A stretch of DNA of 27,873 nt from a virus. Positions 4,430 to 27,873 of this stretch are shown here, piece after piece. Both the position numbers and the translations under genes were made by a program. Position 1 is the first letter of the stretch, and each line of letters opens with the position of its first letter. The stretch is from positions 1 through 27,873 of the IMG/VR virus record IMGVR_UViG_3300012931_000062. One strand, written 5' to 3'. Under the pieces are notes generated by a model. The model saw nothing but the letters and a program-made list of their open reading frames with translations, searched no databases and was not told the DNA's origin.

Positions 4430-5301
4430 TGGAACCTCTCGCAAATGTCGTGACGGGGATAAAATTCAACACGAACAACGGGCCGCAGTGGTCGGTCGAA
4501 GTGCTCGCCGAAGCTCACGGGATGAGCGTCGCAAGCATGACGGCGCTGTGGCGCGGGGCGGGACTTTCCCCGCCGACTGAAGAGGCGCGCTTGCTCAAGT
4601 TCCGAGCGTCTCCAGTGCTCGTGACCGAATTACACAGGCGAAGCGAGGAGCGCAAGGCGGCCATGGTCGAAAAGGCAATCGACCGAGCCTGGACAACGAC
4701 GCAGCTCGAGGGGATCGCGGCAAAGCGCCCGACAACCGAGAAGCTCCTTGGACACATCACAGATCCACGCCTACGGGCATTCGCCGAGCGGTTCGATCCT
4801 GAGCAGCACGGGGGCGCCCTTGTTCTCGGGCCGACCGGGATCGGAAAGACCATCGCGGCCCTGTGTCTGATGCTGCGATGCATGGCAAAGCAGGCCCGTG
4901 ACGCGTTCGAGTCTGACCTGACGGTCCCGTTCACCGAGATTACAACGCCGCGTTGCGCAAAGTCATGGGCTTCCTACGACGCACGCGACCTGGGAAACGC
5001 CATGCAGCACACAGGGCTGAGCGACGCTGACCACGCGAGCATCACACGGGCGAAGACTGCTGATTTTCTGATCCTCGAAGATCTGGGATGGGAGCGCGGG
5101 TTTCACGTGGAGGCCCTGATCGACATCGCTGCCCCCAGGTACCGACGTTGCCTGCCGACGATCGTGACGAGCGGAGAACGACACGATGTCTTGCGCGAGC
5201 GGTACACCGACGCGGTTCTTCGGCGGTTCTGGAACATCGACGGCAAAGACGGGGCAATCGTCGACTGCTGGGCGGCGCAAGAGTGCAAGGGGGCGGCGTG
5301 A
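4429..5301 (+). CDS. DnaC/IstB-like helicase loader ATPase
   Basis: ATG 4429 shares its A with the preceding stop (TGATG) and follows GGAG at 4414-4417; the in-frame GTG at 4396 lies inside the initiator gene and is less likely. The 290-residue protein has an N-terminal domain of about 100 residues, then an AAA+ core with Walker A 'GPTGIGKT' (134-141), Walker B 'FLILEDLGWE' (D218) and a later 'PTIVTSGE' sensor-1-like strand and 'LRRFW' box. This is the DnaC/IstB/phage P-equivalent architecture that loads the replicative helicase at an origin. No IS21 transposase is adjacent, so an IstB role is unlikely. Confidence 0.87.
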   Translation: MEPLANVVTGIKFNTNNGPQWSVEVLAEAHGMSVASMTALWRGAGLSPPTEEARLLKFRASPVLVTELHRRSEERKAAMVEKAIDRAWTTTQLEGIAAKRPTTEKLLGHITDPRLRAFAERFDPEQHGGALVLGPTGIGKTIAALCLMLRCMAKQARDAFESDLTVPFTEITTPRCAKSWASYDARDLGNAMQHTGLSDADHASITRAKTADFLILEDLGWERGFHVEALIDIAAPRYRRCLPTIVTSGERHDVLRERYTDAVLRRFWNIDGKDGAIVDCWAAQECKGAA

Positions 5302-6095
5302 TTAGCGTCCGTGTAATTCACAGCGACAACCGTCCAGCGCTACTGGATCTGGAGCCGCAGCTATCCTGTCGCGTCCACCTCGCTTACCTCGACCCGCCGT
5401 TCGCGACTGGCAAGACGCAAACCGGAACCGCCGGTAGCTACTCGGACACGTCAAGTCTTCGCGAGTGGATGGCCTCGGTGTATGCCACCGTTGAAGCCAT
5501 CAGGCCTCTGCTGCACGAGTCAGGGAGCATTGTTGTCCACTGTGACTGGCGAACGAATTGCCTAGCGAGGAGCCTGTTGGATAGAATTTTCGGGTTCGAC
5601 TCGTTTGCGTCCGAAATCATCTGGAGTTACAAACGATGGCCGACAAAGACGCGAAACTTTCAGCGCACGCACGATACGCTGCTGCGGTACGTCAAGGCAC
5701 CGGGCAAGCAGCGGTGGAATCAGCTGTACTCGCCACTTTCCACTTCAACGCTCAGGGCGTTCGGCGCATCGAAACAGAAAGCTGTGATCGAAGCGGGGCG
5801 CCGTGTCAGATCGACAACTTTGTCCAGTGCGTCACCTGGGGCACCGCTCGGAGACGTGTGGGAACTGCCAATTGTAGCCCCGATGGCTCGTGAGCGAACC
5901 GGGTACCCAACACAGAAGCCGGAGGCGCTACTCGAGCGTATCGTGCTTGCCACCACAAATCCAGGTGACCTAGTTCTCGATCCGTACTGCGGGAGCGGCA
6001 CGACGCTCGCTGTCTGCAAGCGGCTGGGGCGCGAATCAATCGGAATCGATCAGAACGAGGAAGCGATAGCGGTGACCGAGAGGAGGATCGCATGA
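5298..6095 (+). CDS. DNA methyltransferase, beta class (N6-adenine or N4-cytosine)
   Basis: The start is GTG 5298 (GTGA overlap); the longer in-frame extension back to 5088 is a shadow of the loader gene. The 265-residue enzyme shows the beta-class order: catalytic 'YLDPPFATG' near the N-terminus (DPPF, residues 32-35), a variable target-recognition region with Arg/Trp/Tyr-rich sequence, then the SAM-binding 'LVLDPYCGSGTT' (about 226-236) near the C-terminus, preceded by 'YPTQKPEALLERIV', a hallmark of this family. DPPF favours adenine over cytosine. No cognate restriction enzyme is beside it, so it is an orphan methylase, probably for protection or gene control. Confidence 0.9.
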   Translation: MISVRVIHSDNRPALLDLEPQLSCRVHLAYLDPPFATGKTQTGTAGSYSDTSSLREWMASVYATVEAIRPLLHESGSIVVHCDWRTNCLARSLLDRIFGFDSFASEIIWSYKRWPTKTRNFQRTHDTLLRYVKAPGKQRWNQLYSPLSTSTLRAFGASKQKAVIEAGRRVRSTTLSSASPGAPLGDVWELPIVAPMARERTGYPTQKPEALLERIVLATTNPGDLVLDPYCGSGTTLAVCKRLGRESIGIDQNEEAIAVTERRIA

Positions 6096-9231: not shown

Positions 9232-9831
9232 ATGGAGCAGACGCAGTCAAGAGTGACGCAGCGCGGAGGCTACAACCGGGAAGAGCGCCCTACCGTCTTC
9301 GGTGGGAAATCACAGATCGCTGAAGCTATCGAAGACCGGTTCCGTCTCGACTCGATGATAGGCTGGTGCCTCTCGTACGCCGACGGCTACACGGACGCCC
9401 TGGCGGAGGCTGAGGAGATCGGCCCAAACGAACTCCGGATATTCATCGACACGACCAGAGCTCCGAGGTTTTTCCGGCGAAAGAAGCACATTGGGACTCG
9501 GTACATCCCACACGGAAGAACGCAGATCGCCAGGAACAACGACCGAGCGGACTCCAAGGGGCTCCCGTCTCACCTGTCGCGAGAGCAATGGGAGCGCATC
9601 GTCTTCGCTTTCCGTGGTTCATGCGTCTACTGTGGGTGCGCTCCCCGGGTGATGACGATTGACCATCTTGTTCCGATCTGTGCGGGTGGAGGAACGGAAT
9701 TAATGAACGTTGTCCCCGCGTGTTTCGACTGCAACATCAAGAAAGGTCGGAAGATGCCGGAAGAATTCATTTCAAGCGATCGGCTGGCGGAGATTCTTGG
9801 CGTGTTGGGGGGTGTAGCCAAATGCTATTGA
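9232..9831 (+). CDS. HNH endonuclease, 199 aa
   Basis: The C-terminal half is a clear HNH (McrA-type) domain: zinc pair 'CVYC' (131-134), the catalytic 'IDHLVPICAGG' with D144-H145, conserved Asn in 'MNVVPAC', and second zinc pair 'CFDC' (164-167) followed by 'NIKKGRK'. The N-terminal 110 residues are not recognised. HNH nucleases near terminase genes often assist packaging in HK97-type phages, whereas others are homing enzymes. This one lies about 1.4 kb upstream of the small terminase, with no interrupted host gene, so a packaging or general nuclease role is equally possible. AAAGGTG lies upstream of the ATG. Confidence 0.9.
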   Translation: MEQTQSRVTQRGGYNREERPTVFGGKSQIAEAIEDRFRLDSMIGWCLSYADGYTDALAEAEEIGPNELRIFIDTTRAPRFFRRKKHIGTRYIPHGRTQIARNNDRADSKGLPSHLSREQWERIVFAFRGSCVYCGCAPRVMTIDHLVPICAGGGTELMNVVPACFDCNIKKGRKMPEEFISSDRLAEILGVLGGVAKCY

Positions 9832-21614: not shown

Positions 21615-21956
21615 ATGAAGCTCAAATTCTGCGCAAAAAACGATCTGCTTGTGCCTGTTCCCGGGACAACTCAGTACGCCGGACAGACCGCGCGATTCGT
21701 CAACAGAGAGACCAGCGTCTCGGTTGTTGACGGTCAGGAAGTGGTGTCTTGGCCAGCAGTCGAGACGCCGTTCGAGGTCGAGCAGAACAGCGATGACGGC
21801 CGACGGCTGTCCAAGATCGCTACGCGTGATGGCGACCTGTTGCCTTACGACAAGGCCACCGCGGAAGCGCTCGGGATCGGATTTGCGCCGATCAAATTCT
21901 CCTCTGGCGCCTGGGTGCCCGCACCAGTTTCGGCGACCAAGAAAGGTGATTCCTAA
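21615..21956 (+). CDS. Small sheath-upstream protein, 113 aa (DUF2635-like placement)
   Basis: ATG 21615 begins one base after the previous stop; the longer frame back to 21528 overlaps the gp10-like gene. The N-terminal 'KLKFCAKNDLLVPVPGTTQYAG' and later 'RDGDLLPYD' recall the short protein that precedes the sheath gene in Mu-like phages (DUF2635), but it is about 50 residues longer than that family and the match is by pattern only. It ends in a TAATG overlap with the sheath gene. Confidence 0.5.
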   Translation: MKLKFCAKNDLLVPVPGTTQYAGQTARFVNRETSVSVVDGQEVVSWPAVETPFEVEQNSDDGRRLSKIATRDGDLLPYDKATAEALGIGFAPIKFSSGAWVPAPVSATKKGDS

Positions 21957-23500
21957 TGCCTGCAATTGTGCCCGTTACTGGCTACCCGAGTAGCTACCGA
22001 ACTCCCGGGATCGGAATGGAGATTGTCTACGCCTCGGGCGATTCGATCTCTGGCGCCGGAGCGCGCGAAATCCTCATCGTTGGCCCGAAGCTCGCAGCTG
22101 GAACCTACACAGCTGGAACTGTGTACGGCCCGATCAAGACGGAGGCCGAGGTCATTACCGGAGCAGGCGCTGGTGGTCGAATTCACCGCATTTTCAAGCA
22201 ACTCTCGAAGTGTAACAAGACCGCGACCGTCTACATTTTGCCGTACGCCGAAACGACCGGTGGGAGCCCCGCGCAGGCTGTTGGTAACTGGGTTATCAGC
22301 GGCACCGCTACCTCGTCCTTCAACTGGCCGCTGAACATCTGCGGCGAGGAATGTTCGCTCTACATCAAGACCGGTGATGACTACGCCGCGGTTGCGACCG
22401 CCCTTCGTGCGCTTGTGAATCTCAAGACCTACATGCCGTTTACTGCCGCCGGCTCGGCTGGCACGGTTGCGTTTACGTCGAAGCACTACGGCACGAGTGG
22501 CGGAAATGGAACCTACAATCCGCTGCGCATTTTCGCTGATGCTCCCGGCAACGGGCTCACCGTTACGATGGCAGAGATTGGTGCAACCACTGCCGGTGCA
22601 GAGGGCTCCACAACCGAGTCCGCGACGCTGACTACCGCGTTGACGGCTGTCGATGGGCGCTACTTCTACTACTACGCCTACGACAATTTCGCGAACACCA
22701 GCGCCATGTCCGCGCTGAAAACGCACATCGCGGCCAAGTCTGCGCCTCGCTACGGGCGGCTCGCGTATCTCCTGAGCGGGTACAACGGGACCGTTGCTGC
22801 GTTCACCACGATCGCTAACGGACTCAATTACGAGCGCATGGAGTGTGGTCTGCAGCCATACGCCGACGTCGACCCTGCAACGATTTGCGGGCAGATGGTG
22901 GCGACGCATCAGCTGGTTCGCGAGACCGACATGGCAAACGGTCTCATCAACTACGCGAAGGCCGATTGGGCTTTGCCGCCCACGTCACGGACCGCTTACT
23001 GGGTTGACGAGGACGACATCTCGGACGGCATCGCTGCCGGCGCTTCGATGATCGTGAGCAAGACCGGGGGAACGTTCCTCGCGATTTCGATCACCACGCG
23101 AAGCAAGGATTCCACCGGAACCTACGCGGATTTCCGAGCTGCGGAATCGCACCGAATCAGCGTTGCCGACTACTGCGCACTCGATCTCAAGTCGACGCTC
23201 TCGATATATGTCGGGCAAGGCTTCAAGGCACACCCCAAGCTCGCAAACGGCAACCCGGATCCGAATGCGAAGATCCCGCGTGGCGTCACGACGGATTTTA
23301 CGATCCGCCCCATCTACATCGCGAAGATCAACGAATGGGAGGCTGCGGGACTGACACAGAACGCGACCGCGACCATCGCGTCGCTGACGATCGCCAAGTC
23401 ACCGATCAACGCCGGGCGTCTGGAGAGCGGTTTCAGTCTCTATTCGCGCGACAACCTTTCACAGATCACCTGCCGAATCGCCGAGGCGTCGGCTGCGTAA
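21956..23500 (+). CDS. Contractile tail sheath protein (Mu gpL-like)
   Basis: The 514-residue protein has a sheath-like layout: an N-terminal strand region ('PGIGMEIVYASGD', 'REILIVGP'), 'KQLSKCNKTATVYILPYAE', a Thr/Ala/Gly-rich central domain, and a C-terminal domain with 'LDLKSTLSIYVGQGFKAHPK' then 'TIRPIYIAKINEWEAAG' and a final 'SLTIAKSPINAGRLESGF'. Length and the immediate downstream tube gene agree with Mu gpL and P2 FI. It forms the contractile outer tail, establishing the phage as a myovirus. Confidence 0.85.
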   Translation: MPAIVPVTGYPSSYRTPGIGMEIVYASGDSISGAGAREILIVGPKLAAGTYTAGTVYGPIKTEAEVITGAGAGGRIHRIFKQLSKCNKTATVYILPYAETTGGSPAQAVGNWVISGTATSSFNWPLNICGEECSLYIKTGDDYAAVATALRALVNLKTYMPFTAAGSAGTVAFTSKHYGTSGGNGTYNPLRIFADAPGNGLTVTMAEIGATTAGAEGSTTESATLTTALTAVDGRYFYYYAYDNFANTSAMSALKTHIAAKSAPRYGRLAYLLSGYNGTVAAFTTIANGLNYERMECGLQPYADVDPATICGQMVATHQLVRETDMANGLINYAKADWALPPTSRTAYWVDEDDISDGIAAGASMIVSKTGGTFLAISITTRSKDSTGTYADFRAAESHRISVADYCALDLKSTLSIYVGQGFKAHPKLANGNPDPNAKIPRGVTTDFTIRPIYIAKINEWEAAGLTQNATATIASLTIAKSPINAGRLESGFSLYSRDNLSQITCRIAEASAA

Positions 23501-23512
23501 GGGGCTAACTAG

Positions 23513-23884
23513 ATGTCACTCACAGATTTTGGGCGAATGGTCGTCTTCCTTGACGGCAAAGAAATCAAGGTTGCCGAGAGCTTCGAGCATGAGACCGATG
23601 CCGGACAGGTGCCGGTATTGGTGCTCAATGAAGGGCTCGTTGGTTTCACTCCTGGCGCTGGCCAATGCAACCTGAGCGGCACGCTGAAGGTGCCAATTGG
23701 CGGCTTCGAGGAGAACATCCAAGCATGGGCCGTCGAAGGCTCGTACCACGTTTTTCAGACTGGAATCGGTGCGAACGCGGTCATCAACACTGGCAAGTTC
23801 ACCAACGTGAAGCTCTCGCAGAGCGTTGGGCAGGACGCGCAGATCTCCTATCAATTCGTCGGCGACAAGAAGCCGTTTTCTTGA
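23513..23884 (+). CDS. Tail tube protein (Mu gpM-like)
   Basis: This 123-residue protein directly follows the sheath gene. The pattern 'GRMVVFLDGKEIKVAESFEHETDAGQVPV..NEGLVGFTPGAGQCNLSGTLKVPIGG' (positions about 8-65, shown in part) matches the Mu gpM/tail tube family, beta-rich and 110-130 aa long. It forms the inner tube surrounded by the sheath. There is no membrane or signal sequence. Confidence 0.83.
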   Translation: MSLTDFGRMVVFLDGKEIKVAESFEHETDAGQVPVLVLNEGLVGFTPGAGQCNLSGTLKVPIGGFEENIQAWAVEGSYHVFQTGIGANAVINTGKFTNVKLSQSVGQDAQISYQFVGDKKPFS

Positions 23885-23901: not shown

Positions 23902-24681
23902 ATGTCAAATGGGCCGCCACCCGGATATGACAGCAAAGCCCTGCTCGCTGCTCTACTAGAGAGACCTCGACCATCGAAGGTCGTTGAGTTCCCGAGCGAT
24001 CAAGCGAAGGGTACGCCGTTCGAGCAGATTCGTCTCGTTGTGCCGAGAGCTAGCGCCAAACAGGATGCGCAGCTCGCCGCGCATCGACGAATGCAGTCGC
24101 TGAAGCTGCCGATCGAGGAATGGAAGACCGAGACAGGTGCCGCCATGCTGGGCGACTTCTGCTCGAAGGAGTGCCTGGTTCGGATGATCCATGGCGTCGA
24201 AGAACACGCAAACGGCATCTACGCTCGCGTGTTCGGTGACTCGAAGGATCTCGAAAACGCGCTCAGTCCGGATGAGATTGACGTTCTGTTCACGCTTGCG
24301 ATGCAGGTGGAGAACGAGCTCGGGCCGAGGCTTCACGTTTTCACTGATGCGGACGTAGAGCTGTGGGTTGAGGCTCTCAAGGACGGATTTGATTTTTTAG
24401 CCTATCTGCAATCGCCGGACTTGGTCAGGCTAGTCCGTGGGTTGCACCGGCTGGTCCTGACGGAAAGAGCAAAATCCACTGGTTCTTCACCCCCCGATTC
24501 CCTGCTATCGAGTTCGCGAGATGGCATGGGATCGACGTGCGAGACCTCTGTGACGCACACTGGATCGTCTGGCGAGCAGCAAGACGAGCCATCGGTGACT
24601 CTTGATACGGAGCCAATGTCCAGCGAGGCCGTCTTGAGGATGGCCCAGGAAATGGCGCGGAAATCTAAGCGGCGCGTGTGA
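23902..24681 (+). CDS. Tail assembly chaperone, 0-frame product
   Basis: The gene between tube and tape measure in this phage type encodes tail assembly chaperones that coat the tape measure during tail assembly. The 0-frame product is 259 aa with a helical body to about residue 192 ('DEIDVLFTLAMQVENELGPRLHVF', 'LVRLVRGLHRLVLTERAK'). From about 193 the 0 frame becomes Ser/Thr/Asp/Glu-rich and less protein-like up to about 237, then ends in a helix-like 'SSEAVLRMAQEMARKSKRRV'. The low-quality stretch coincides with a well-formed -1 frame (24393-24605), suggesting frameshifting. Mu-type phages have a frameshifted chaperone here. AGGG (23890-23893) lies upstream of the ATG. Confidence 0.7.
   Translation: MSNGPPPGYDSKALLAALLERPRPSKVVEFPSDQAKGTPFEQIRLVVPRASAKQDAQLAAHRRMQSLKLPIEEWKTETGAAMLGDFCSKECLVRMIHGVEEHANGIYARVFGDSKDLENALSPDEIDVLFTLAMQVENELGPRLHVFTDADVELWVEALKDGFDFLAYLQSPDLVRLVRGLHRLVLTERAKSTGSSPPDSLLSSSRDGMGSTCETSVTHTGSSGEQQDEPSVTLDTEPMSSEAVLRMAQEMARKSKRRV
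24393..24605 (+). other. -1 frame extension of the tail assembly chaperone (predicted programmed frameshift)
   Basis: In frame 0 the codons GAT TTT TTA (24391-24399) form the U_UUU_UUA slippery heptamer (24393-24399). In the -1 frame a TGA stop lies at 24390-24392, so that frame opens exactly at the heptamer and stays open for 71 codons to TGA 24603-24605. The -1 peptide is protein-like ('IHWFFTPRFPAIEF', 'WIVWRAARRAIGDS') and its third-position GC is higher than frame 0 from about 24472 (64 versus 56 percent, counted by hand), whereas frame 0 is better between 24400 and 24470. An alternative shift point is the A-run in GCA AAA (24469-24474). Unlike lambda G/GT, frame 0 continues beyond. Confidence 0.55.
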
Positions 24682-24725: not shown

Positions 24726-27188
24726 ATGTTTCTCTCGTACGACATCTCCATTGTTGGGCAGGAAAAGGTCCGCGCTTGGTTGCGCTCGACCGAGGCCGAG
24801 GTCGCCGCGTCCAACCGTAGAACCATGTCTGCGCTACGAGAGTCCGATAGTGACTCCGGTGTCCATTGGGCGCGTCAGTCGTCCAGTGACAGGACCGCGG
24901 TCAGCGAGAGCGCCAAGAGCCGCCTCATCCAGCGTGAGGAGCGGAACCGAGTAGCCGCATCGACAGCGTTGCAGCGCCAGAGATCTGCCGCCCTCTACTC
25001 GATTCACAAGGCCGAGGAGCGTACCAAGGAACGCGCTCAGCGAGCGGAGGCTAGATTGTTGGCCTCGCAGGACAAGAAACGCGCGTCCGAGGAGATTGCG
25101 GCCGAAAAGCGCAAGACCTCCCAGTCCAGGATTGAAGAGAAGCAGCGACAGGCGAGTGCCGACGCGTTGCAGCGCCAGCGCTCTTCTGCCCTGATCAGTC
25201 AGTACAAGGCCGAGGAGCGGGAGAAGACCCGCATAGCCAAGGCAGAGGCCAGAGATCGTGCGCGAGCCGTCAGGACCGCAGAGCGCGAGCACAAGGCCGT
25301 TGAGTCTCGGAGCAGGGCAGACTTCAAACGAACCGCCAGGGGCGTCCTGGGCGGCACCGCAGAGCGTGTAGCGGGCATAGGCAAAGCCGGCGTGGCCCTG
25401 ACCGGGCTGGCTGGAGGAGCCCTGTTTGCGACCGCTACGCATGGCGCGATGGCTACTGAGGCGCGAGCGTCAGAGCTAGCGAACCAGCTGGTCGTTGGCG
25501 CCGACGCGACTCCAGAGAATATCACCAAGGCAAAGAAGGAAATTCTGGTTACCGCGAGATCAACCAGGGGAGCTTCGTCCGAGGAACAGATCGCCGGCAT
25601 GAGTGCGTTTCAAGCGCGCGCCGGCGAGGGTGAGGCCACCAAGAAGATCTCGCCTCGGCTGGTCAAGACAAAGCTGGCGACCGGTGCCGACATGGAAGAC
25701 CTCGGCACGATGTACGCCGCCGTCTACGCGTCGCTGCGCAACGCATCTGGTGGCGCATCCAAGACCGTTGACCAGCTCATCAACGAGACCGATGAGCTTG
25801 GGCGAGTCTTCGCGGCAATGGGCGCGGTTGGCGCCATCGAACTGAAGGACTTTGCCGAGATTGGCGCCACCGTAACGGCGGTCGCGGGCAGATACGGCGG
25901 AACTCAGTCGCAGAACATCAAAGACGTTGCGGCCGTATCGCAGATCGCGATGCAGACCGGTGGGGCTGACACGTCCGCAGAAGCGGCTACAGCCGTATCG
26001 TCGTTCACGGCTGATCTGATTCAGCACAGCAAAGAAGCCCGCAAAATGGGCGTCAACGTCTACGCGAACGACGAGGGCACACAGCTCAAGGCGATGCCGG
26101 ACGTGATCGCGGAGCTGATGGGAGCGACCGGCGGAAACCTGGAGAAGCTCTCCAGTGTTGCAAACATTCGCGGAATCAAGTCGATGATGGGGCTCTCGGC
26201 TCCGTACCTCGAAGCATACAAGGGAGCCAAGGCCGAGGGGAAATCCGAAAAGGAAGCGAAGGAAATCGGCAAGGCAGCGGTCAAGAAGAAGATCGGCGAA
26301 TTCGGTGGCGCCGTGATGACCGAGCGGGAGCGCGACATCAAGGCCACGGCTCGGCTATCTGACGCCGACAAGCTGCTCGAAGAGAACATGCGACAGTTGA
26401 CGACTGCGGTCGGGCAAGAGCTGCTCCCTGTTGTCACCAGGATGATCCCCGAGATTTCCAAGCTCATCCCGGTTGCGGTTGATGCCGCCAGGGCGTTCGC
26501 GCGATTCGTCGAGATCGTAAACCGGAATCCGCTAGCTGGCCTCGGCGCCATGATCGGCGCAGCGTTTGCGCTTGAGCTTGGCAAGGTGTCGCTCGCGAAG
26601 ATGTTCGGTGACACACTGGATCGGATTGCCAAGAATCAGAACGTCGGCGAAGGTGGGACCGTTGGAACCGTGAGCACAGCGATAACCGTCGCGGCAGCGA
26701 CGTTTGCGATAACAAGCGCAGTGCTGAACATTGCTCACGAGTCAAGCATCAAACGAGGCCAGGATGTGGCCGACAAAACAAACGAGGCATACTTCGAATA
26801 CCAGCGTAAAAGGGGCGAGGTTATCGCTGGGCCAGGCACCGAAGAAGAGAAAGCTGAAAAGTTGCGGCGGCTAGCCGCGGAGCAACTGCCGAACATAGAA
26901 AGAGGCGCAAAAGAAACATCGTCTCCAGCGTTGGATTTTGTATCAAGCCTCCTTGACAGAGACGATGTGAAGCGCGCCCCTGGCGAGGAATCAATGCCTC
27001 GCAAGATTCTGAAGCCATTCTTCACATCGAGCACCGAAGAGGCGGCTAATAAAGGGACAGCGAATTTCGTCGCAGAACTCAAACAAGATCGAGAGGCAAC
27101 AGCAAAAGTTATCGCTGATGCTGTGCGCGATGCGGTCAAGGCTGGAGTTAGCGTGAACACCTCGAACAAACCGTCACCTGTGAAGTAG
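24726..27188 (+). CDS. Tail tape measure protein, 820 aa
   Basis: The longest gene of the window. A TGA at 24720-24722 forbids any earlier start in this frame; ATG 24726 has no good Shine-Dalgarno sequence. The first 200 residues are charged coiled coil (Arg/Glu/Ala/Ser) with an internal duplication (see repeats). Residues about 220-245, 600-618 and 645-665 are hydrophobic and could insert in the host membrane at injection. The centre has Gly/Ala/Thr-rich helical repeats. A tape measure sets tail length; at the usual rough 1.5 angstrom per residue, the tail would be near 120 nm. The C-terminus is charged and helical. Confidence 0.87.
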   Translation: MFLSYDISIVGQEKVRAWLRSTEAEVAASNRRTMSALRESDSDSGVHWARQSSSDRTAVSESAKSRLIQREERNRVAASTALQRQRSAALYSIHKAEERTKERAQRAEARLLASQDKKRASEEIAAEKRKTSQSRIEEKQRQASADALQRQRSSALISQYKAEEREKTRIAKAEARDRARAVRTAEREHKAVESRSRADFKRTARGVLGGTAERVAGIGKAGVALTGLAGGALFATATHGAMATEARASELANQLVVGADATPENITKAKKEILVTARSTRGASSEEQIAGMSAFQARAGEGEATKKISPRLVKTKLATGADMEDLGTMYAAVYASLRNASGGASKTVDQLINETDELGRVFAAMGAVGAIELKDFAEIGATVTAVAGRYGGTQSQNIKDVAAVSQIAMQTGGADTSAEAATAVSSFTADLIQHSKEARKMGVNVYANDEGTQLKAMPDVIAELMGATGGNLEKLSSVANIRGIKSMMGLSAPYLEAYKGAKAEGKSEKEAKEIGKAAVKKKIGEFGGAVMTERERDIKATARLSDADKLLEENMRQLTTAVGQELLPVVTRMIPEISKLIPVAVDAARAFARFVEIVNRNPLAGLGAMIGAAFALELGKVSLAKMFGDTLDRIAKNQNVGEGGTVGTVSTAITVAAATFAITSAVLNIAHESSIKRGQDVADKTNEAYFEYQRKRGEVIAGPGTEEEKAEKLRRLAAEQLPNIERGAKETSSPALDFVSSLLDRDDVKRAPGEESMPRKILKPFFTSSTEEAANKGTANFVAELKQDREATAKVIADAVRDAVKAGVSVNTSNKPSPVK
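24966..25226 (+). repeat. Internal duplication in the tape measure gene
   Basis: Residues 81-101 ('ALQRQRSAALYSIHKAEER' in part) and 147-167 ('ALQRQRSSALISQYKAEER') are near copies 66 residues (198 bases) apart, with both DNA copies containing GCGTTGCAGCGCCAG and AAGGCCGAGGAGCG. They are diverged at many third positions, so they are an old duplication of a coiled-coil unit. Confidence 0.75.
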
Positions 27189-27231: not shown

Positions 27232-27873
27232 CTATGGTAGGGCCTTCTTTGCGTGCAGATACCTTGAATCGTCAGAGACCAACTTGCGTGCGCTTTTGAG
27301 CACTTCCCGTAGTCGCTCCAGTGAGTTGTTCATTTCATTGCAGCTTCCAAGGTGGCGTGGGTCGCAACTTACGCAAGACTGCGCGAAGCTAAGGGTCATG
27401 TCTGCCATTATGCTGACCCCTTTGGTCATTTGCGCTCCCAAGTCATCGTTCTCTTTCATGAGGCTTCTGACGGTTGCGTAGTCTCGAACCATTCGGTTGT
27501 TGCATTCGCCAAATTGTTTGCCTGTTGCCGCTCCCATCTGCGGTCGGGGTTGGTTCTTGATTGAATTGGCGTAGGATGTAAATGCCGAGACTTTCTGGAT
27601 GTATGCTTCGGTCAGATCAAGCGACGCTCGATTGTGAGAATGTCGGATTTTGCGCAACTCCAGAGACTCTGGCGCGCTCGCGGCTCGCATTAGCAGACCG
27701 GATAGAAAATCGTCGCATCGCGTCTTGCATTCCAGGTTGAAAGCTTCTGCCCGGCACTCAGGGGACCATGACTTGGTAACCGAGAGAAAAGAGGCTTCGG
27801 CGGAACCGGGGTTGTCGGTGTCGTGCTCTATCTTGTTGAACCAAAGGTCACTGGCGTTGCATGTGCTGTTCTG
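27232..27873 (-). CDS. Unidentified cysteine-containing protein, minus strand, partial
   Basis: The minus-strand frame ends at TAG (27234-27232) and is open to the right edge of the window, giving at least 213 C-terminal residues; no start is seen, and an internal ATG at 27690 would give 152 aa. The sequence contains eight cysteines spaced irregularly ('NSTCNAS', 'SPECRAEAF', 'LECKTRCDD', 'SCVSCDPRHLGSC'), many Asn/Ser, and helical segments ('LERLREVLKSARKLVSDDSR'). No family is recognised. It converges on the tape measure gene with only 43 bases between, and DNA looks less GC-rich than its neighbours. It may be an inserted accessory gene (moron) or the edge of host DNA. Confidence 0.6.
   Translation of the reverse strand, partial: QNSTCNASDLWFNKIEHDTDNPGSAEASFLSVTKSWSPECRAEAFNLECKTRCDDFLSGLLMRAASAPESLELRKIRHSHNRASLDLTEAYIQKVSAFTSYANSIKNQPRPQMGAATGKQFGECNNRMVRDYATVRSLMKENDDLGAQMTKGVSIMADMTLSFAQSCVSCDPRHLGSCNEMNNSLERLREVLKSARKLVSDDSRYLHAKKALP

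Follow-up and report, generated by a model that had tools for sequence, protein, structure and literature searches.

The frameshift in tail assembly chaperone genes was reportedly found to be conserved by Xu, Hendrix and Duda in 2004. In the closest described system, that of phage lambda, the two products gpG and gpGT arise at a ratio of 30:1, the G part being assigned to the tape measure protein and the T part to the tube protein (PMC5009743), and the corresponding isoforms have been called TAC-N and TAC-NC (PMC12846349). In both accounts, the unshifted product is the short one and the shifted product the longer (PMC5009743, PMC12846349). Frameshifting of this kind is widespread, and in known cases the 0-frame stop follows closely, at a mean of 26 nt from the slip site in the training set of PRFect from SEA-PHAGES (PMC10885494).

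The gene discussed here departs from this picture in that its unshifted reading is the longer of the two. It belongs to a virus represented by an IMG/VR contig of 27,873 nucleotides – the whole stretch that was analysed, referred to below as the window – and all features mentioned lie on the + strand unless stated otherwise. A tail sheath gene (21956-23500; PHROG 165, E 6.8e-40), which provides the context and was also used to find homologous loci, is followed by a tail tube gene (23513-23884), recognised by a match to the tail tube family PHROG 185 (E 0.0012) and by its position after the sheath. Next come the chaperone gene (23902-24681) and a long open reading frame taken as the tape measure gene (24726-27188), which had no match in a PHROG search and was called by its position after the chaperone gene, its length and its 38% identity, over 645 aa, to the same-position gene in a related locus, L073. 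The ORF that comes after the tape measure gene and closes the contig is on the opposite strand (27232-27873, -). Neither Pfam nor PHROG gave it a significant match, and tblastn found no match for it in the loci retrieved up to then; in Mu-like phages, this same place is taken by a DNA circularization gene. Elsewhere, the window encodes a D12-class N6-adenine DNA methyltransferase (760-1650, +; PF02086, E 5.9e-44), an N6/N4 DNA methyltransferase (5088-6095, +; PF01555, E 1.3e-47), a VRR-NUC domain protein (2359-2700, +; PF08774) and an HNH endonuclease (9232-9831, +; PF14279/PF01844).

From its ATG at 23902 to position 24681, the 0 frame of the chaperone gene is open throughout and encodes 259 aa, comprising an N domain and a C-terminal extension. 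The -1 frame has a stop codon, TGA, at 24390-24392, directly before the heptamer T_TTT_TTA (24393-24399) – which lies in the phase of the 0 frame and is recognised from both the sequence and the homologues – and then remains open until a TGA at 24603-24605. The original prediction had placed this stop, the heptamer and the final TGA (ending at 24605) as they are found here, while its length of 71 codons has to be corrected to 70 counted from 24393, or 68 after the slip. These 68 codons and their TGA (24399-24605), encoding what is described here as a T-like domain, would complete a shifted product of 234 aa (166+68), which bears out the earlier statement that the unshifted product, at 259 aa, is the longer. 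Between 24400 and 24602 the DNA appears to be dual-coded in frames 0 and -1, as indicated by the conservation of both frames and by a drop in divergence at four-fold sites (see below). Our main reading, to which we assign a probability of about 0.92, is that this one gene yields two tail assembly chaperones by programmed -1 frameshifting at the T_TTT_TTA heptamer at 24393-24399.

Neither the chaperone 0 frame nor the -1 extension gave a significant PHROG match, and the window chaperone protein and the -1 extension had no Pfam match; tail chaperone families are often too diverged for sequence matching to described families. The assignment as a tail assembly chaperone, already made from the sequence, is upheld by the location of the gene, flanked by those for tail tube and tape measure, together with the predicted structure of the N domain. 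In an AlphaFold model built on 39 sequences (with the MW202476 row left out), this domain is folded, and its best VIA-align match is the HK97 tail assembly chaperone, 2ob9_A (Z 9.1, rmsd 3.6, 103/107 residues), followed by YqbN, 3klu (Z 6.8), with the remaining rows below 5; Foldseek alone gave no significant match for the N domain.

The set of homologues had to be assembled by an indirect route. Among annotated phages, tblastn found one distant relative, MW202476 (L002), whose similarity to the window protein ends at the slip site; there it carries C_CCT_TTA, followed by a -1 frame similar to the window's, and its annotation at the chaperone shows a single hypothetical protein. The record itself, MW202476.1, is titled Siphoviridae sp., yet it codes for a tail sheath of the Mu-like kind, suggestive of a contractile tail. 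Searches of viral contigs with the single window chaperone or sheath protein found none, and seven aligned N domains proved too diverged to serve as a query. More loci were reached through relatives of the terminase and then by sheath alignment (53 viral loci), and one further locus, the only one to come from a genome scan, belongs to a Burkholderiales MAG. Once duplicates had been removed, the set stood at 43 distinct chaperone genes carrying a slip heptamer, that of the window among them.

In 40 of these 43 genes the layout is nested, that is, the -1 frame stops inside the longer 0 frame. Their -1 extensions span 61-76 codons (median 67), and their 0 frames run on for 81-130 codons (243-390 nt) past the slip – making the -1 domain easy to miss – and outlast the -1 frame by 12-63 codons in every one of the 40. 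Of the other three, two (L067 and L068) have the classical layout, with a 0 frame that ends after 47-53 codons and a -1 frame of 83-87, and the third (L120) runs off its contig end. In a tree of the sheath proteins, the 40 nested genes group as a single clade (100/98) that excludes the classical and split phages, and the nested layout is the rule for this whole clade. It had been suggested that the last part of frame 0 could be a small gene of its own, starting at the ATG at 24616, which does exist in frame 0. Because frame 0 runs through this region without a break in every one of the 40 nested homologues, and the conserved C-terminal helix that it encodes has no consistent start codon – any ATG being found in only 22/40 tails – a separate gene is not supported.

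The slip heptamer is found at the same place, in frame and with TTT as its second triplet, in 43/43 homologues. CCCTTTA is the commonest form (29 genes), followed by CCCTTTT (6), TTTTTTA (4), CCCTTTC (2) and TTTTTTG (2); elsewhere, in-frame XXXTTTZ heptamers occur only 5 times in 8,086 upstream codon positions. The leucine codon at the site is TTA in 33 of 35 cases, compared with 2.3% upstream, and the proline codon is CCT in 37 of 37, compared with 12.9%. Given this choice of TTA and CCT, and the rarity of such strings upstream, the heptamer is not explained by amino-acid conservation: the codons at the slip site serve the nucleotide string. An A-run at 24471 had been put forward as a second possible slip site. 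It contains no X_XXY_YYZ heptamer, and the conserved residues of the -1 frame start right after the heptamer at 24393, hence before the A-run, which identifies the former as the slip site.

As for stimulatory elements, the 8-mers that precede the heptamer by 10-14 nt show, across the family, stronger pairing with the anti-Shine–Dalgarno (anti-SD) sequence than synonymous shuffles do: the best spacing gives about -7.2 kcal/mol, compared with -5.5 in the shuffles – a difference of 5-6 standard errors – and pairing at nearby spacings is weaker or neutral. An SD spacing of 10-14 nt is known to stimulate bacterial -1 frameshifting, as in dnaX. In the window, the candidate stimulator is an SD-like AAGGA (24379-24383), 9 nt upstream, a shorter distance than is optimal in the family. 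A downstream stem-loop was considered as well and rejected, the mean pseudoknot-free folding energy after the site not being special (z 0.06 against windows of the same gene).

Both frames past the slip site bear marks of conservation. When the 0-frame amino acids are kept and synonymous codons shuffled, 7.8/40 of the -1 frames are expected to be open, and when the -1 amino acids are kept, 10.7/40 of the 0 frames, compared with 40/40 observed in each case – figures that are descriptive only, because the 40 genes were grouped by layout. The sequences themselves were also compared, in similarity shuffles and four-fold-site counts that treat pairs as independent and ignore shared ancestry: the mean pairwise similarity of the -1 peptides is 96, vs 28 in controls preserving only frame 0, and that of the 0 frame in the overlap is 66, vs 34 in controls preserving only frame -1. 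For pairs with an N-domain identity below 25%, the corresponding values are 61 vs 25 for the -1 frame and a small 33.7 vs 30.2+-1.3 for the 0-frame overlap, so that the -1 signal is strong at every distance, whereas that of the 0 frame weakens in the most distant pairs; taken for the window by itself, the 0-frame signal in the overlap is modest (33.6 vs 27.6+-1.1). In ten closer pairs – again counted as if independent of shared ancestry – the share of four-fold 0-frame sites that differ is 50% ahead of the slip, 29% within the overlap and 47% past the -1 stop (Fisher p 6e-9 for before vs overlap), and changes at 0-frame position 2, which is the -1 wobble base, rise from 14% to 24% in the overlap. 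Thus, in agreement with the original prediction of a programmed -1 frameshift, and contrary to the outcomes named there as refuting it, the heptamer is present in 43/43 homologues, the -1 frame is uninterrupted and conserved in every one, and the fall in four-fold-site divergence coincides exactly with the overlap of the two frames. Judging from these comparisons, the entire -1 T-like domain is encoded by overprinting on the 0-frame gene, with both readings under selection.

The two extensions are predicted to have very different structures. That of the -1 frame forms a compact domain with the order H-E-E-H-H (AlphaFold pLDDT 88.5), for which fold searches gave only weak rows and no recognised fold relative, a result that does not show its fold to be new. 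The 0-frame extension is modelled as a helix (residues 171-194; 24412-24483), a disordered Ser/Thr-rich stretch with pLDDT <50 (residues 199-233; 24496-24600) – in line with the Ser/Thr-rich composition noted at the outset for frame 0 after about 24472 – and a C-terminal helix beyond the -1 stop (residues 241-258; 24622-24675). The first helix carries a motif conserved in relatives, LPxLxELxxxLAxRxxxLS, and the tail that includes the second retains similarity past the -1 stop even in distant pairs (22.1 vs 17.2 shuffled).

In the proposed mechanism, most ribosomes would stay in frame 0 and make the 259-aa protein, consisting of the N domain, helix, disordered linker and C-terminal helix. A minority would slip back by one base as the P-site and A-site tRNAs re-pair on TTT-TTT, yielding the 234-aa protein with the same N domain and the folded T-like domain instead. 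By analogy with lambda gpG/gpGT, the tape measure protein may be the binding partner of the N domain, and the T-like domain may bring in the tube subunits. That slippage occurs, in what ratio the products are made and which partners they bind are points that we infer.

Several other explanations of the two open frames deserve consideration. One is that only the -1 frame matters past the slip site and that the 0-frame extension is open by accident and has little function. The fast divergence of the overlap residues in the window lineage (61% amino-acid difference to L073), the predicted disorder of the linker and the 0 frames of L067 and L068, which stop after only 47-53 codons, would all be at home in such a scenario. 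It nonetheless appears unlikely, given the excess of open 0 frames over the 10.7/40 expected, the conservation of both the first and the C-terminal helix, and the fact that the 0 frame stays open for 12-63 codons past the -1 stop in each of the 40 nested genes.

Alternatively, the -1 frame might be a separate small gene with a start of its own, translated by internal initiation or coupling. Overlapping genes are common in phages, and an ATG, GTG or TTG is found near the site in the -1 frame of 22/40 homologues; the remaining 18/40 have no start at all, though, and 35/40 have no ATG. The window is among those with no start codon near the slip site. A separate gene would also leave the fixed heptamer and its TTA/CCT choice unexplained, and in the split relatives described below a domain of this kind shares one continuous reading frame with an N domain, all of which makes this explanation very improbable. 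Slightly less probable still is transcriptional slippage at the T run as the source of the alternative frame. The window does have six consecutive T, and some relatives have longer runs, but 37/43 homologues have CCC and then TTT, mostly with three T only, and a run of three T is too short for transcriptional slippage. What is conserved is rather a pattern typical of two adjacent tRNAs re-pairing, accompanied by an SD-like element at a spacing known to stimulate bacterial -1 sites.

Of particular interest to this comparison are four related loci, L069-L072 (contigs G013, G010, G009 and G012), which have no heptamer and instead carry two tandem genes, A and B, after the tube gene. A profile of the N domain matched gene B strongly, and matched gene A of three of the four weakly. 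The profile of the shifted product (N+T), however, aligns with gene A from end to end (hhalign probability 98.8, E 6.5e-17, columns 7-236), whereas that of the unshifted product aligns with it over the N part only (columns 7-174). Being colinear with N+T, gene A indicates that the fusion predicted to arise by frameshifting exists in relatives as an ordinary, unshifted protein; duplication is the simplest putative origin of the pair. Between their chaperone and tape measure genes, the same four loci have a small ORF of about 120-140 aa that contains a YASFVxxRGxS-like motif and has no counterpart at that place in the window. The nested clade has quite probably turned the chaperone frameshift inside out, its unshifted chaperone having gained a functional C-terminal tail laid over the whole T domain, while a neighbouring lineage would have abandoned the frameshift and placed the two products in two genes. 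The 40 phages with two selected frames, the two classical relatives and the four two-gene relatives amount to natural replicates, so that the question of why phages keep a frameshift rather than two genes becomes accessible to comparative and genetic tests.

How does this locus relate, then, to the systems described so far? With lambda gpG/gpGT it shares the position before the tape measure gene, a common N domain, a -1 slip on an X_XXY_YYZ heptamer and an alternative C-terminal T domain; in lambda, however, a stop codon ends the 0 frame shortly past the slip and the longer product is the shifted one, whereas here the 0 frame outlasts the -1 frame. With products of 234 vs 259 aa and nesting in 40/43 genes, this is a nested variant of the G/GT frameshift rather than the classical layout. 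No report of a nested tail chaperone frameshift was found in the literature searched, outside which lay Xu 2004 and most subscription papers. Mu-like myophages with a related sheath (SfV, SuMu, PBb001, phiNP, phiAP1, PY6, martha 12B12 and MuM16-2) have the same gene order and, in 6/8, a slip heptamer of the T-run or A-run type towards the end of the chaperone gene, with martha 12B12 and MuM16-2 probably using a -2 shift. Unlike the nested genes, all eight annotated Mu-like phages have the classical layout, the shifted frame running 116-221 nt past the 0-frame stop, and in the sheath tree they fall outside the nested clade. The tandem-gene phages have a homologous N domain in gene B and, by profile comparison, an N domain with a T-like C-terminus in gene A, but two unshifted genes replace the two products of one gene.

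Frameshift products that are shorter than their unshifted counterparts do occur in other settings, as in E. coli dnaX. The same is true of copA (PMC5009743), and in human PLEKHM2 a frameshift opens an ORF inside the main one (PMC12551717). Yet dnaX, copA and PLEKHM2 are unrelated genes, and what distinguishes the present case is a -1 domain of about 67 codons that is predicted to be folded and is conserved throughout its clade.
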